DNA of 64,000 nt from an uncultured Muribaculaceae bacterium. Lineage in GTDB: Bacteria; Bacteroidota; Bacteroidia; Bacteroidales; Muribaculaceae. Shown here one piece after another: positions 28,086 through 58,169 of this stretch (the stretch's first letter is position 1; each line of letters starts with the position of its first letter). The translations under genes and the position numbers were made by a program. The stretch lies in assembly GCA_944321875.1 (NCBI GenBank), contig CALUMX010000005.1, forward strand, positions 1-64,000, read 5' to 3'. Below the pieces are notes generated by a model. It did not search any database and was not told the DNA's origin. It worked only from the letters and a program-made list of their open reading frames with translations.

Positions 28086-30449
28086 ATGAAAAACACACGC
28101 ATCCTTACCCCGCCTTTGCTCCAACCGGCAAAGAGCGACACGACACGCCGTGTCAACCTCCGCCAGCACAACGACTGCCTCATTGCCGCCGGCGAACCCG
28201 AAACACGCTGGAAACTGCGCTTCGGCGAAACGCTGGCCGGCTGCGACCGCCGGGGCGAAACGACGTTTGTACTCACCGTCCGCGACCGGCAACTGCTTCT
28301 GGCCGCCGCCATCGAAGGCTCATCGGCGAGAGCCGTCGACCGGCCGCTCTGCACTTTGGAAGGTGATGTTGCGGGAATGGCCGCCTCAGGTGAGTTTCTG
28401 GCCATAGCCGACAGCCGGAGAATCATCCTGCTCCGCTACACGGACGACGACTACACGCTGCTCGACAGCGAAATCCGCTTTCCCGTATTTTCCTGGCAGG
28501 CAATGCTATTGGGAAGCGTAACAGCCGACCTCCCCTCGTTCACGCTGAAAGGCAGCTACCCCAATTGGACAGGAACGGTCAATGCCGATGACAAGGCCGA
28601 CATACGCCATCTGCTGAACGATGCCGTCAGCTCTCTCCGCCGCGACGCCGGCCGAAACCGCGGATACCTGATGCCGGTCGCCGTCAGGACGGCTCTGCGG
28701 CTGGCCGACGACAGCCTGCTATGGTGCAACGAGTGGCCGTTGCTCGGCACGCGTCCGGAAATCGAGACGCTGGCACGCACCCATCCCGACAACCGCAACC
28801 AGATAGAACCATCCTCTCTGAGCGTGCCGTTATGGAGACCGGCTTTTACCGTGGCCGACGCCGGACTCGGGAACTGGAGACCGCTGGTGAAGGCCATCGA
28901 GTTTTATGTGACCGACGAACTGCCGCTGACCACGGGCGACATCCGCGCCTTTCTCGAGAAACGGCAAGTGGGCACGCCCGAATACTTCATCCGTCTTTCC
29001 GGCCTGACCCCGATAGGCAACACGGAAGACCACAGCGTCATCACGCAGACCCGCGGACGGCGCGTGGCCGTCATCAGCGACATCGATGCCTTCCTGCAGG
29101 GCAAGGTTACGGGCGACGGCATCGCTCCGACCTCCTCCCCCGACTGTTTCGCCCTATTATCTCCCACGACAGAGGAAAGCGCGGAATGGCAACGGCGGCT
29201 GCCTCCTTTCGCAGCCCGGACGCTGTGCGACGTGGGAGGCGAGCTCTTCTGCGGCGACCTTCTCACCGGATTCCACCGGCCGGGCGCATTCCTTTCGTTC
29301 TGCGATGCCGGCCAACTGACCGACGGTCCGGCAGAAACCACCGTCATCGCCGAGATTGCCACAACCGAGGGAATCTCCCGACTTGTCCACACCGAAACCG
29401 CCACCCGCTACAGCCTGACTCTCGGCCGCCTCCTTGTCTATCCCGACAACCGGGCATTGCGTCTGACGCTTACCGCAGTCAAGGACGGCCACAAATACAC
29501 GCTGTCCGTCCCGCTTACGGCATCCGTGTCGGGTAATTTTGCCTATGCGCTGGCGGAGGACGAACCGTTCCAACTGTCAGCCGACGCCTCCGCGGTTATT
29601 CCCGAGCCGGACGAACGGCCCCGGCACGATGCCTCTGCCATCGTAAGAAGCGCCGCCGGCAATCCGCTGCAATGGCACTTCTGCACACGCTCCACCAACC
29701 GTGGAGTAATTGCGTTGCAACCCTCGTTCCGCTACGGGTCGTCGTGGCTCGTAGGACGCAGCCCGGTCTGCTTTTTCGCCGCCGACGGAGTCTACCTGTT
29801 GTCGTTCGACAACCGGGGAGGCTTTACAGCCGCCACCCGCATTTCCCGACGGCAACTGAAAGCTCCCGGAACGGTTACGGCTACCGAAAACGGACTGGCA
29901 TTCATCGACACCAACGGCGAACTCTGCCTCTACGAAGGCAGCCGCGTGAAGCCGACAGGCATTTTCCAGCCGGGCACAACAAGTATGGGCTATTCGACCC
30001 GCTACGGAGAAATCTGGCTGACTGCGGCCGAATCGGCACTCATCGTCGAGCGCACGCTCCACTGCTACCGCCGTCCGCTCCCAAACGCCCGAATCAACGG
30101 CGGATGGCTTCTCGCGGACGGCGCTCTTTCCCTGACTGAAAGCGAGTCGGACACGCCGGTTAGCATCGAACTGACAACTCACCCGACCGACACCGGCTGG
30201 CAACGTCCTGAACTTGTCACATGGGACATAGCATCGGACAACGCCGACCTCTCGCTGACCGTCTATGCAGAAAACGGCCATTCCTGCCACGGCCGACGCC
30301 TGTCAAGTCTCCACGTCGGCGGACGGATAGGCTCGCCCATCCATCACCGCCTTCTCGCACCACCGACACGCACCCTGCGGCTTTCCGTCGAGGGACGCGC
30401 CCTTCCCGGTTCCTGCATTTATCCCATCCGCATCGCCACATCACGCTGA
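28086..30449 (+). CDS. large orphan protein of unknown function, beta-rich
   Basis: 787 residues, no signal peptide or membrane helix, and many short beta-prone stretches with turn motifs (TGIFQPGTTSMGYS, GEIWLTAAESALIVE) suggesting propeller-like or jelly-roll domains. A segment at about residues 193-221 (MPVAVRTALRLADDSLLWC) resembles in pattern a recurrent 'VRYALRLYDGS' segment I associate with large hypothetical proteins of Bacteroidales, some in prophage tail regions; this is recollection, not a search. A possible phage-derived or baseplate-like relative is therefore inference. Codon use matches the neighbours, so recent transfer is not indicated. It stands alone with its own promoter and terminator. 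Confidence 0.75.
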   Translation: MKNTRILTPPLLQPAKSDTTRRVNLRQHNDCLIAAGEPETRWKLRFGETLAGCDRRGETTFVLTVRDRQLLLAAAIEGSSARAVDRPLCTLEGDVAGMAASGEFLAIADSRRIILLRYTDDDYTLLDSEIRFPVFSWQAMLLGSVTADLPSFTLKGSYPNWTGTVNADDKADIRHLLNDAVSSLRRDAGRNRGYLMPVAVRTALRLADDSLLWCNEWPLLGTRPEIETLARTHPDNRNQIEPSSLSVPLWRPAFTVADAGLGNWRPLVKAIEFYVTDELPLTTGDIRAFLEKRQVGTPEYFIRLSGLTPIGNTEDHSVITQTRGRRVAVISDIDAFLQGKVTGDGIAPTSSPDCFALLSPTTEESAEWQRRLPPFAARTLCDVGGELFCGDLLTGFHRPGAFLSFCDAGQLTDGPAETTVIAEIATTEGISRLVHTETATRYSLTLGRLLVYPDNRALRLTLTAVKDGHKYTLSVPLTASVSGNFAYALAEDEPFQLSADASAVIPEPDERPRHDASAIVRSAAGNPLQWHFCTRSTNRGVIALQPSFRYGSSWLVGRSPVCFFAADGVYLLSFDNRGGFTAATRISRRQLKAPGTVTATENGLAFIDTNGELCLYEGSRVKPTGIFQPGTTSMGYSTRYGEIWLTAAESALIVERTLHCYRRPLPNARINGGWLLADGALSLTESESDTPVSIELTTHPTDTGWQRPELVTWDIASDNADLSLTVYAENGHSCHGRRLSSLHVGGRIGSPIHHRLLAPPTRTLRLSVEGRALPGSCIYPIRIATSR

Positions 30450-30465
30450 GCGACAGACAAAAGCA

Positions 30466-30516
30466 AGCGGCGCTCCCTATCGGTAATTCCGACACGGAGC
30501 GCCGCTCTTTATTTTT
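30466..30516. terminator. bidirectional terminator between convergent genes
   Basis: AGCGGCGCTCC (30466-30476) pairs exactly with GGAGCGCCGCT (30496-30506), followed by TTATTTTTTC on the plus strand. Confidence 0.9.
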
Positions 30517-30520
30517 TCTT

Positions 30521-30964
30521 CTATTTTTTCTCCTGCAAATCGACCAACAGCATGCGGACCTCGCATGAATCCTTGCCGACACAGGCAGCTGTACCGATTC
30601 CCCACATAAAAGCCGCATCAGGGCCAAACTTCTGCTTAAAGGCGAAAAGTGCATCCAACTCACTCATCAAAAAAAGATGCTGCTCCGAACTGCAGAAATA
30701 AACCATCACCCGGGAAGCAGAGAACACGTCAAACATCGGAGCCACCGCCTCAGCCTGCGCCACCGCCGCGTCAATTGATTGCCTTAACCTGTCCGCGCCC
30801 TCTCCACGTCCTTCCAGGCACAGCGCATTCGCGGCCCCCTTGACAGTCATATCGACATCTACGGCGTCGAACGAAATAATCTGACGACTGACATTCGACA
30901 ACATTTGAATCATCTCTTCTTTCAATTCCTCCATTTCAGAGGCGTAATAAACATGTTTTTTCAT
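30521..30964 (-). CDS. small protein resembling the isolated C-terminal domain of FtsZ
   Basis: 147 residues. The order VDVDMTVKGAANALCLEGRG, GEGADRLRQSIDAAV (54-68), ASRVMVYFCSSEQ, a helix MSELDALFAFK, then AAFMWGIGTA and CEVRMLLVDL closely follows the FtsZ C-terminal (tubulin C) domain pattern of 'GxA-GExRAxxA', 'GxLVNI', 'ANVIxGTxxD' and 'RVTVVATG'. The GTP-binding domain, including the GGGTGTG loop, is absent. The first 30 residues are a charged helix. A role in modulating cell division or another tubulin-like polymer is inference. Single gene. Confidence 0.65.
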   Translation of the reverse strand: MKKHVYYASEMEELKEEMIQMLSNVSRQIISFDAVDVDMTVKGAANALCLEGRGEGADRLRQSIDAAVAQAEAVAPMFDVFSASRVMVYFCSSEQHLFLMSELDALFAFKQKFGPDAAFMWGIGTAACVGKDSCEVRMLLVDLQEKK

Positions 30965-31099
30965 ACTAATATCTTTTCAATTAATAAACAACGGCGCCAT
31001 CCGGCAACAGATTTCCCTACAGTTGCGCCACGCTGTACAGATTACCTCACTAAGGTAGCCGATTCCCTCCACACCGACAAATTTCACCCACGAAAAAAA

Positions 31100-31129
31100 G
31101 CCCGGCAAGCCAACCATGACTTGCCGGGC
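31100..31129 (-). terminator. terminator of the BspA-like gene
   Basis: GCCCGGCAAG (31100-31109) and CTTGCCGGGC (31120-31129) form a perfect stem followed on the minus strand by seven Ts. Confidence 0.92.
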
Positions 31130-31169: not shown

Positions 31170-33185
31170 TTATTTAACCACCTTGAAGGTGTAGGCCTTG
31201 CTGCCGTCAAATACGCGGATAACATACACACCGTTAGCTCCGGCCTTGAGCAGTACAGAGCCGCTGGCGTTGTTCACCTTGCTGACAAGAGCGCCTGTCG
31301 TGCTGTACATCTCTACCGTCGCATTCTGTGCGTCGCCGAGAACAACGTTGAAACCTTCAGCCGTGTTGAGTACGAGGCAATTGCTGCTCTCCACCTTGCA
31401 AGCAGAAGAATTCTCCTTGCCCACAAACTGAATAGTCATCGCCTGGTTCAAAACGCCTTCGCTGTCCTTGATGAATCCGGCAGGAAGTTTCACGAAATAG
31501 TCAACGCCACCTTCGAGTACGATTGGCTGTACGTAGCCTTCGCCATACTCATCCTGCGGGAATACGGAAACCGTCATCTTGTCTGCAGAATTGTTGACTG
31601 CCATCCAGCCGAAATCCTCTACCGGCTCGCCATAAATTTCAGAGCCCTTGGAAACTGTGATTTCCGGCAACGAATTTACGACAGTTGCCTCAGACGGGAA
31701 CGTAATGTCGATTGTGCCGAGTTCTGAAAGCTCAGACTCTGCCGCCGGAGTAAAGCTGTCAGGGAAGAATACAGGAGCCTCTGTGTCGACGATGTTAGAG
31801 AACTCAGAGCCCCAGTAAGAATCCTTGTAAGCCTCCAGACGTCCCTTCGGAACAGAAACCGTTACATTGTCGCGGTCGATGTAGCCGAACGGGTGGTCAC
31901 CTTCCTCATAGAAATCCAAATAAGCCGGTTCAGCACCGAGGCAGTGCACCTCAGTCAGCGCCTTGCAAAGGTAGAAGGCATGGAAGCCGACATAGTTGAT
32001 TGAAGACGGCAATGTGATGGACTGCAGGTTCTCGCATTGACCCATAACACCGTCGTAAAGAGTTGTCATGCCCTCCGGGAAAGCAAATGACGTGAACTGA
32101 GTTCCCGCAAGAGCCTGCTCACCCATATAGAGCAAGGAAGCCGGAGTGTTCATCTCACTCAGAGAGGAGAAAGTGAAAGCATAGCTGTCGAAAGCACGCA
32201 TGGTTTCCGGCAAGGTGAGCTTCTGAATTTGCGCCGCATAGAACGCACCGCCGCCAATACCACGGCATCCGTCGAGTACGGTGTATTCCGCAGCACCCTT
32301 CGTTGGATATGCAGCAAGGATAAGACCGTCCTTCGTGTAGACCACACCGTCTACGGCCTTATATTGCTCGTTGTTCTCAGCCACCGTAAATGCAGTTATC
32401 TGAGTCTGGCCGAAAGTTGCGTTACCGATAGTCTTCACATTCGCAGGAATATTGACAGATGTCAGACCTGCCTCAAGGAACACGTTGTCATCGAGAGTAA
32501 CCAACGATTCCGGCAAAGTGATTTCCGTAAGTTTTGGACATTGACGGAAAGCACCATTGGAAAGTGTCTCCAAACCTTCGTTCAACGTCACCTTTGCCAG
32601 TTCCTCACAAAGCTGGAATGCGTTGTCGCCGATGCTCTTGCAAGTAGCCGGAATGGTGATTTCCTTCAAAGGAACCTTGTAGAAAGCACCGTTACCGATA
32701 GAAGTGTACTGACCTTTGATTTCAATGTTGGTCATAGAGGAGTTGCGTGCAAAGCAACTTTCCGGAATAACGGTCACACCTGCAGGAACAACGACATTGT
32801 TCAACGCGTCGTTGTAGGCAAGTGCATAGCGTCCGAGCGTAGTGAGCGTTTCCGGGAGCACAACCTCTACCAAGGCATCATTGGAATAGATGGCTGTCTC
32901 CTTCAGTTCCGTAACAGAAGCAGGAAGTACGAGCTTTGTCAAGTCAGACCATTTGATGGCTTCTTCCTCAATGGAAGTCACACTGTAGGTCTTTCCTTCA
33001 TTTACGACTTCGGAAGGAACCGTCAGCTCCGTAGCGGCAAACTCGTCAGTAAGTCCGCTGAGGCCGACCGTCTTTTCTCCGGTAACAATGTATTCCACAT
33101 TGTCAACCACAAATGTTGCAGCCTCTTGAGCGAAAGCAGAAGTCGCCAATGACGCAGCAAAGACAAGAGTAAAGATTTTCTTCAT
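31170..33185 (-). CDS. secreted BspA-like leucine-rich-repeat surface protein
   Basis: Signal peptide (cleavage near AFAQ), then about twelve LRR_5 repeats of roughly 23 residues over residues 50-420 (for example TLNEGLETLSNGAFRQCPKL, EITLPESLVTLDDNVFLEAG), a beta-sandwich region, and a C-terminal domain ending AYTFKVVK preceded by MYSTTGALVSKV and GVYVIRVFDGS, the pattern of type IX secretion sorting domains. It should be secreted and surface-attached; the BspA family includes adhesins binding fibronectin or matrix components. 671 residues, single gene with a promoter at 33214-33243. Confidence 0.88.
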   Translation of the reverse strand: MKKIFTLVFAASLATSAFAQEAATFVVDNVEYIVTGEKTVGLSGLTDEFAATELTVPSEVVNEGKTYSVTSIEEEAIKWSDLTKLVLPASVTELKETAIYSNDALVEVVLPETLTTLGRYALAYNDALNNVVVPAGVTVIPESCFARNSSMTNIEIKGQYTSIGNGAFYKVPLKEITIPATCKSIGDNAFQLCEELAKVTLNEGLETLSNGAFRQCPKLTEITLPESLVTLDDNVFLEAGLTSVNIPANVKTIGNATFGQTQITAFTVAENNEQYKAVDGVVYTKDGLILAAYPTKGAAEYTVLDGCRGIGGGAFYAAQIQKLTLPETMRAFDSYAFTFSSLSEMNTPASLLYMGEQALAGTQFTSFAFPEGMTTLYDGVMGQCENLQSITLPSSINYVGFHAFYLCKALTEVHCLGAEPAYLDFYEEGDHPFGYIDRDNVTVSVPKGRLEAYKDSYWGSEFSNIVDTEAPVFFPDSFTPAAESELSELGTIDITFPSEATVVNSLPEITVSKGSEIYGEPVEDFGWMAVNNSADKMTVSVFPQDEYGEGYVQPIVLEGGVDYFVKLPAGFIKDSEGVLNQAMTIQFVGKENSSACKVESSNCLVLNTAEGFNVVLGDAQNATVEMYSTTGALVSKVNNASGSVLLKAGANGVYVIRVFDGSKAYTFKVVK

Positions 33186-57585: not shown

Positions 57586-57773
57586 CACTATCTTTGGATA
57601 AGATAGGATACGGCTCGGCAAAGTCATAACTTGAAAACTTCGCTTTCGTTTTGCCTTTGCGCTCGCCTTTCACTATCTTTGGATAAGATAGGAGGCGGCT
57701 CGGCAAAGTCTCAACTTGAAAACTTCACTTTCGTTTTGCCTTTGCGCTCGCCTTTCACTATCTTTGGATAAGA
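57586..57773 (+). repeat. 85-bp tandem repeat (two full copies plus partial third) carrying promoters
   Basis: Copy 1 is 57586-57670, copy 2 is 57671-57755 (five differences in 85), and a partial third copy of 18 bases starts at 57756. Each copy begins CACTATCTTTGGATAAGA, which includes a TATCTTTG -7 box and the dyad CTATCTT-tggat-AAGATAG. The TTTG of one copy lies exactly 20 bases before the TATCTTTG of the next (57650-57653 to 57674-57681; 57735-57738 to 57759-57766), so the repeats make two complete tandem promoters pointing at rbfA. Confidence 0.9.
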
Positions 57774-57788
57774 GACCCAATTTATTTT

Positions 57789-58169
57789 ATGGAAACAACA
57801 AGACAAGCTAAGATTGCACGATTACTGCAAAAAGAATTAAGTGAACTGTTTCGCCGTCAGACGGCAGCCATGGGTGGCGTACTCGTATCGGTAAGCGCCG
57901 TACGCGTATCGCCCGACCTGAGCATCGCCCGCGGCTACCTGAGCATTTTCCCTTCGGAAAAGGCCGGCGAGATTCTGAAAAATATCAACAACAGCGCCAA
58001 GTCAATCCGTTACGAACTGGCCAAGACACTGCGCTACCAACTGCGCAAAACGCCGGAATTGTCGTTCTTCATCGACGATTCCCTCGACTACATCGAACAC
58101 ATCGACAACATCCTCAAGCAGGATGCCGCGCTCCATCGCAACGACGAGGAAGAGACGGAGGAGAAATAA
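57789..58169 (+). CDS. rbfA: ribosome-binding factor A
   Basis: Late 30S maturation factor binding 16S rRNA. The KH-like domain is recognisable: ARLLQKELSELFRR at the start, VRVSPDLSIARGYLSIFPS, and ELAKTLRYQLRKTPELSFFI followed by DDSLDYIEHIDNIL. 126 residues with an acidic tail. It has tandem promoters in the repeat just upstream and is followed at 12 bases by an FtsX-like permease gene. Confidence 0.93.
   Translation: METTRQAKIARLLQKELSELFRRQTAAMGGVLVSVSAVRVSPDLSIARGYLSIFPSEKAGEILKNINNSAKSIRYELAKTLRYQLRKTPELSFFIDDSLDYIEHIDNILKQDAALHRNDEEETEEK

Follow-up and report, generated by a model that had tools for sequence, protein, structure and literature searches.

The window analyzed here, a 64,000-nucleotide stretch of DNA from a gut bacterium of the Muribaculaceae, contains a gene (30521..30964, minus strand, stop codon included) whose 147-aa product is a homologue of the C-terminal half of FtsZ, that is, of helix H7, the T7 loop, and the C-domain. 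The gene is intact, starts with ATG, and belongs to a FtsZ-derived, GTPase-less protein family. Usually, the two halves of FtsZ are joined in a single protein, and the same genome, which is 2.70 Mb in size and 99.8% complete, encodes one such complete FtsZ (457-aa ORF in L001). The free C-terminal half is probably a real accessory protein that either makes contact with FtsZ or presents attackers with a mimic of it.

Homology and Fold of the 147-aa Protein

When 149 genomes of the family were searched with the 147-aa protein, 130 gave a match at E ≤ 1e-3. Apart from the protein itself, each of the matches listed falls in the C-terminal half of a complete FtsZ (frames of about 420-600 aa). The best match is the FtsZ of a congener (E 1.4e-11, 31% identity), and the FtsZ of its own genome is matched at 1.8e-6. 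A profile built from 33 FtsZ proteins of the same family scored the protein at 45.1 bits (E 3e-16, model positions 216-320), compared with 5.7 bits for the best of 5000 shuffled versions and 2.5 bits for the best other ORF of the window (425 ORFs of at least 60 aa). The preliminary description had recognized a stand-alone FtsZ C-terminal domain by eye and had conceded that the match could be partly chance. The comparisons above show that the resemblance is not due to chance, and the identification is borne out by the family-specific profile and by the structure modeled from an alignment.

A search with the Pfam FtsZ_C profile and a structure prediction had been suggested as checks on that identification. 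The structure prediction returned the FtsZ C fold (see below). The generic profile FtsZ_C (PF12327) gave no hit in the Pfam scan of the protein, a result overridden by the significant match to the Bacteroidales-specific FtsZ profile. The NCBIfam scan gave no hit either, and phmmer against PDB reached FtsZ only at E 0.44. A weak, sub-threshold Pfam match to argininosuccinate synthase (14.5 bits) was rejected as chance. Because genes of this kind escape the generic models of Pfam and NCBIfam or score far below cut-off with them, they probably appear in annotations as hypothetical proteins.

The lack of a GTPase half, claimed from the beginning, also holds. The alignment to FtsZ begins at helix H7, the GTP-binding half with its GGGTGTG signature is absent from the ORF, and no remnant of a FtsZ N-domain lies within several kb of the gene. 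At the other end, the protein stops 6 residues past strand S10, so that the C-terminal linker and the conserved tail peptide are absent. A split FtsZ with a separate gene for the N-half was considered and rejected, as nothing in the genome but the normal ftsZ passes the cut-off of the Pfam Tubulin model. The suggestion that the protein might regulate another tubulin-like polymer finds no support in the genome, because no Tubulin/FtsZ GTPase domain other than that of the normal FtsZ exceeds the curated cut-off. In a tree of FtsZ sequences, the branch of the 147-aa protein is saturated (length 10), and the tree tests are compatible both with an origin inside the genus and with a source outside the family.

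AlphaFold2, guided by an alignment of the 147-aa protein with 17 FtsZ C-halves, predicted the FtsZ C fold with a pLDDT of 90.4 and a pTM of 0.84; because the rows of this alignment are FtsZ, the model indicates compatibility more than independent proof. In detail, helices are placed at residues 8-23, 34-41, 59-74, and 100-110 and strands at 46-55, 85-92, 118-125, and 133-141, with T7 between the first two helices. This is the full element order of FtsZ, i.e., H7-T7-H8-S7-H9-S8-H10-S9-S10. All 50 top PDB matches listed by Foldseek for this model are FtsZ (best E 5.8e-10, TM 0.70). The prediction from the single sequence had a pLDDT of 45 and led to no usable match with Foldseek.

The regions of the protein retain FtsZ residues to different degrees. 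Helix H7 (residues 8-23 by the secondary structure of the model; 30896..30943, minus strand), in full FtsZ the core helix that packs on the GTPase half, keeps 2 of 11 FtsZ-conserved positions, with its conserved small and hydrophobic residues mostly exchanged for Glu, Lys, Met, and Gln. The alignments locate the core of the T7 loop, F-D-A-V-D, at residues 32-36 (30857..30871, minus strand). Both aspartates of the N-x-D-x-x-D motif are kept (D33 and D36, equivalent to D210 and D213 of S. aureus), and the Asn (N208) is replaced by Ser31. In FtsZ, the T7 aspartates of one subunit position the catalytic water at the GTP that its neighbor binds, and each of the changes D210N, D213N, and N208L blocks assembly (PMC8936486). 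D33 and D36 stand where helix H8 begins and might be kept as helix caps rather than for GTP. By per-region identity, helix H10 (residues 100-112; 30629..30667, minus strand) is among the regions better conserved with respect to the FtsZ of relatives. Together with S8 and S9, H10 forms the longitudinal plus-end polymerization face of FtsZ (PMC11938149).

The Locus and Other Free FtsZ C-terminal Genes

The upstream neighbor of the 147-aa gene is a BspA-type leucine-rich-repeat gene (31170-33185, minus strand), located 205 bp from it. This neighbor is closed by a strong intrinsic-terminator-like hairpin of 13 pairs followed by a T run (31100..31129, minus strand). A promoter-like site of the Bacteroidota type, TTTG-N20-TAccTTaG (31050..31081, minus strand), which is a consensus match only, lies 86 bp upstream of the ATG of the 147-aa gene; the window has 10 matches to this pattern, compared with 1.6 expected from shuffles. 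A promoter-like motif of the Bacteroidota type is also carried by a sequence of about 85 bp that is repeated in tandem at 57590-57766 of the window, directly upstream of the start of an rbfA-like gene near 57791. With a promoter-like site of its own and a terminator-like hairpin upstream, the 147-aa gene is probably transcribed separately.

Downstream, a weak terminator-like hairpin (30496..30508, plus strand), of a kind whose count is near the shuffle expectation, separates the gene from a convergent gene for a 787-aa protein with no family name (28086-30449, plus strand). This 787-aa protein is conserved in the genus at about 34% identity and has no Pfam or NCBIfam match, nor any match in the four other genomes of the family that were searched. 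SufE and a POT transporter are the further neighbors. The position of the 147-aa gene is a nonsyntenic junction among ordinary chromosomal genes. The gene of the 787-aa neighbor and the O-methyltransferase/pyruvate kinase genes are kept in the genus; in three relatives they are not adjacent to one another, and no FtsZ C-terminal gene is present at those loci. The codon usage of the 147-aa gene (0.58) is weaker than that of its neighbors (0.65-0.77).

Protein and profile searches of the family and the order revealed three further lineages of free FtsZ C-terminal genes in Bacteroidales, each with a complete gene. The first (G577, L081:5060-5536, plus strand) encodes 158 aa and belongs to another Bacteroidales family. 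The other two are of the same family as the genome of the window, i.e., G210 (L082:4065-4484, plus strand, 139 aa) and G215, a Paramuribaculum MAG (L103:2188-2616, minus strand, 142 aa). The three proteins score 40-67 bits against the FtsZ C-terminal profile. A full-length FtsZ is also present in G577 and G215, and no second FtsZ match was found in the genome of G210, which is 88% complete. A scan of 84,980 species added an orthologue of the G215 gene with 56% identity, from a MAG of a Bacteroidales bacterium (L105:907-1371, plus strand). All four genes are complete ORFs within their contigs, so that FtsZ genes cut by a contig edge were rejected as their source, and no N-domain remnant is found nearby in the three that were checked.

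The pair formed by G215 and L105 allows selection to be estimated. Its pN/pS is 0.39 (bootstrap 0.30-0.53), and its dN/dS of 0.18 (dN = 0.34, dS = 1.83) is approximate, since dS is near saturation; purifying selection is clear. At least in that lineage, therefore, a free FtsZ C-terminal gene has a function.

The distribution of the free genes is patchy. They diverge fast (about 20-25% identity) and are found at unrelated loci. No orthologue of the window gene was detected in 3 congeners, nor in 397 genomes of the family at E ≤ 1e-10. Matches within the family down to 5e-7 are all on FtsZ-sized frames, with the exception of that of G210. Free FtsZ C-terminal genes are absent from the 3 congeneric genomes and from the searched genomes of the family other than G210 and G215. 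Collections of viral, phage, plasmid, and genome contigs contained no stand-alone close relatives; the annotated plasmid matches are ordinary FtsZ, and the two phage records matched carry no annotation.

Several candidates were discarded during these searches. Short frames of the G693 and G453 type look like contig-edge FtsZ. The 314-aa frame of G560 is no stand-alone C-domain; it forms the latter portion of a FtsZ-like/TIR gene that is frame-shifted. At this locus (L087:5565-7078, minus strand; G560:C13, same order), a divergent FtsZ-like N-half of 220 aa, with GGETGSK replacing GGGTGTG, overlaps a frame which carries a FtsZ C-half and a TIR domain (PF10137 CAP12-PCTIR_TIR, 3.3e-7). Together they look like a FtsZ-TIR fusion broken by a frameshift, present beside a normal FtsZ, which suggests FtsZ-based sensing by a NAD-consuming effector. 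Complete FtsZ genes are also multiplied in the order Bacteroidales. Three full-length copies stand in tandem on one contig in G426:C11, G539:C114, G633:C37, and G464:C83, and other genomes have two copies (e.g., G094, G719, G780, and G587).

The four lineages were compared at 36 columns that are at least 90% conserved across 42 FtsZ sequences of Bacteroidales. Each free protein keeps 13-18 of these columns. Six of the 36 are kept in all four lineages, compared with 1.05 expected, a number reached in none of 20000 permutations. These six comprise the two T7 aspartates, two glycines of the S7-H9 region, an alanine of H9, and a glutamate at the start of H10. T7 is the best conserved region, or among the best, in every lineage, and its aspartates are also kept in the L105 orthologue. 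None of the four lineages has kept the Phe between the aspartates, and three have lost the Asn in front of them. Much of the FtsZ surface is lost at H7, S8, and S10. The free proteins are about equally close to FtsZ and to each other, and their alignment has no conserved stretch of 7-10 columns.

Two of the free genes, those of L103 and L105, are located in the same run as an ADP-ribosylglycohydrolase gene (L103:1363-2616; L105:907-3306). The two hydrolase genes are 82.6% identical, and in L103 the hydrolase gene is 4 bp from the stop of the FtsZ C-terminal gene. In L105, the free gene is surrounded by three tandem paralogues of a family without a name. A 214-aa or 277-aa gene, also without a name, accompanies these runs. 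There is no such hydrolase gene beside the window gene. Tre1/Tri1 is a pair of a FtsZ-ADP-ribosylating toxin and an immunity ADP-ribosylhydrolase; a Tri1-like identity of the neighboring hydrolase finds no support, as Tri1 is not among its PDB matches.

Candidate Roles of the Free C-terminal Half

The mechanism placed first is that of a cap or sequesterer. Reduced to H7, the T7 loop, and the C-domain of FtsZ, the protein would need neither the GTPase half nor the membrane-tether tail and would act as a non-polymerizable half-subunit. Its free T7/H10 face would occupy the GTP face of the resident FtsZ, the normal seat of the T7 loop of the next subunit, and no subunit could add beyond it because it lacks a GTP face of its own. 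In this way, the protein would cap the minus end or tie up FtsZ monomers. Acting in trans, its T7 aspartates might in addition accelerate the turnover of GTP in the capped subunit. We infer the production of the protein, its binding to FtsZ, and the effect of this binding, and the docking model is favored tentatively, with a confidence that falls somewhat short of even.

Capping or modulation of division filaments, as proposed in the preliminary description, is plausible and leads the other mechanisms because both T7 aspartates, which act on the neighboring subunit, are kept. It is also supported by the homology to FtsZ, the modeled FtsZ C fold with all its elements, the six columns kept in all four lineages, the loss of most FtsZ-conserved residues from H7, the purifying selection on a related free gene, and the promoter-like site and upstream terminator-like hairpin of the window gene, and the complete resident FtsZ is a potential partner. 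Against capping, the T7 Asn needed for FtsZ assembly is Ser, and the codon usage of the gene is weaker than that of its neighbors. A housekeeping regulator of filaments should be widespread and syntenic, whereas the free genes are neither. Furthermore, binding to the minus-end (N-terminal) face has been argued to lead more readily to nucleation or stabilization of filaments than to their inhibition (PMC11938149), which counts against capping by the 147-aa protein.

The same face could instead serve as a bait. According to this reading, which is only a little less favored than capping, the protein would be a decoy or target mimic that displays the plus-end face of FtsZ (T7/H10/S9) and absorbs or senses FtsZ-directed proteins of phages or of other bacteria. 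SulA, MciZ, MinC, and MipZ share the C-terminal polymerization face as their target (PMC11938149), and the phage protein Gp0.4 sequesters FtsZ in a complex that is even sensed by a defense protein (PMC13423816). The free genes are patchy, diverge fast, and are scattered over unrelated loci, as conflict genes typically are. A decoy accounts for this distribution about as well as capping does, and the tandem paralogues of L105 follow a layout known from the orphan-immunity arrays of Bacteroidales (PMC12247911). An ADP-ribosylglycohydrolase gene adjoins the free gene in two genomes. As a precedent, the Tre1/Tri1 pair combines a toxin that ADP-ribosylates FtsZ with an immunity hydrolase, yet the PDB matches of the L103/L105 hydrolase do not include Tri1. 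Also against a decoy, the neighbors of the window gene are ordinary and not defense-like, PADLOC gave no defense hit for the 147-aa protein, no recombinase gene was seen, and FtsZ-directed toxins of Bacteroidales are not documented in this analysis.

A broader proposal, about as tentative as the decoy reading, joins these ideas. The fast-evolving, GTPase-less FtsZ half-proteins of Bacteroidales may be decoys or dominant poison subunits, sometimes in an operon with an ADP-ribosylhydrolase that would repair FtsZ. By analogy, and just as tentatively, they would constitute a cytoskeletal parallel to the integrated decoys of immunity.

It is unlikely that the gene is a functionless relic in this species, i.e., a duplicate of ftsZ that has lost its 5′ half. 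Its codon adaptation is weak, and with no orthologue in the 397 genomes of the family, selection on the window gene itself is not directly measurable. However, when drift to 30% identity was simulated (substitutions only, indels ignored), the frame stayed free of stops in just 11 of 400 runs, and the retained residues cluster at positions critical for FtsZ. The start codon, the promoter-like site, and clean domain boundaries are all there, and a related free gene is under purifying selection.

Reuse of the fold for an unrelated job, with the contact to FtsZ lost, is similarly improbable: the tubulin C-domain fold does resemble other small alpha/beta folds, the H7, S8, and S10 surface is largely lost, and the free proteins are about as near to FtsZ as to each other, but the joint retention of the T7 aspartates and part of H10 is hard to explain without contact to FtsZ or to a FtsZ binder.

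Relation to Known Systems and Significance

The 147-aa protein shares with the FtsZ C-terminal domain (PF12327; TIGR00065) the homology over H7, T7, and the C-domain, the modeled fold, and the Asp-x-x-Asp of T7. FtsZ differs in having a GTP half, a linker, a tail peptide, and the T7 Asn, none of which is found in the 147-aa protein. The proposed action at the longitudinal polymerization face of FtsZ resembles that of SulA, MciZ, MinC-N, and MipZ. None of these is known to derive from FtsZ, nor is any FtsZ inhibitor known that is built from FtsZ itself. Their binding site on FtsZ is the plus-end (C-terminal) face (PMC11938149), whereas the 147-aa protein is itself that face and would bind the GTP side.

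Similarly to FtsZl1 and FtsZl2 (PMC2875224), the 147-aa protein is a divergent member of the superfamily which exists alongside a normal FtsZ. In these two families, however, it is the nucleotide-binding core that is retained, and a C-domain cannot be recognized in FtsZl1, the reverse of the situation in the 147-aa protein (PMC2875224). The orphan-immunity arrays of Bacteroidales (AID/rAID; PMC12247911) also consist of short, patchy, and fast-diverging genes, and the L105 relative stands among tandem paralogues. Unlike these arrays, the window gene is single, no recombinase or immunity gene is noted adjacent to it, and no toxin partner is known. Searches of the open-access literature yielded no account of a protein that consists of a free FtsZ C-domain, and an earlier mention elsewhere is possible.

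A gene which consists of T7 and the C-domain only would be a natural tool for probing one end of the FtsZ filament, with respect to both capping and catalysis in trans. If the decoy reading is true, gut Bacteroidales would meet FtsZ-directed attack often enough to retain a mimic of FtsZ.
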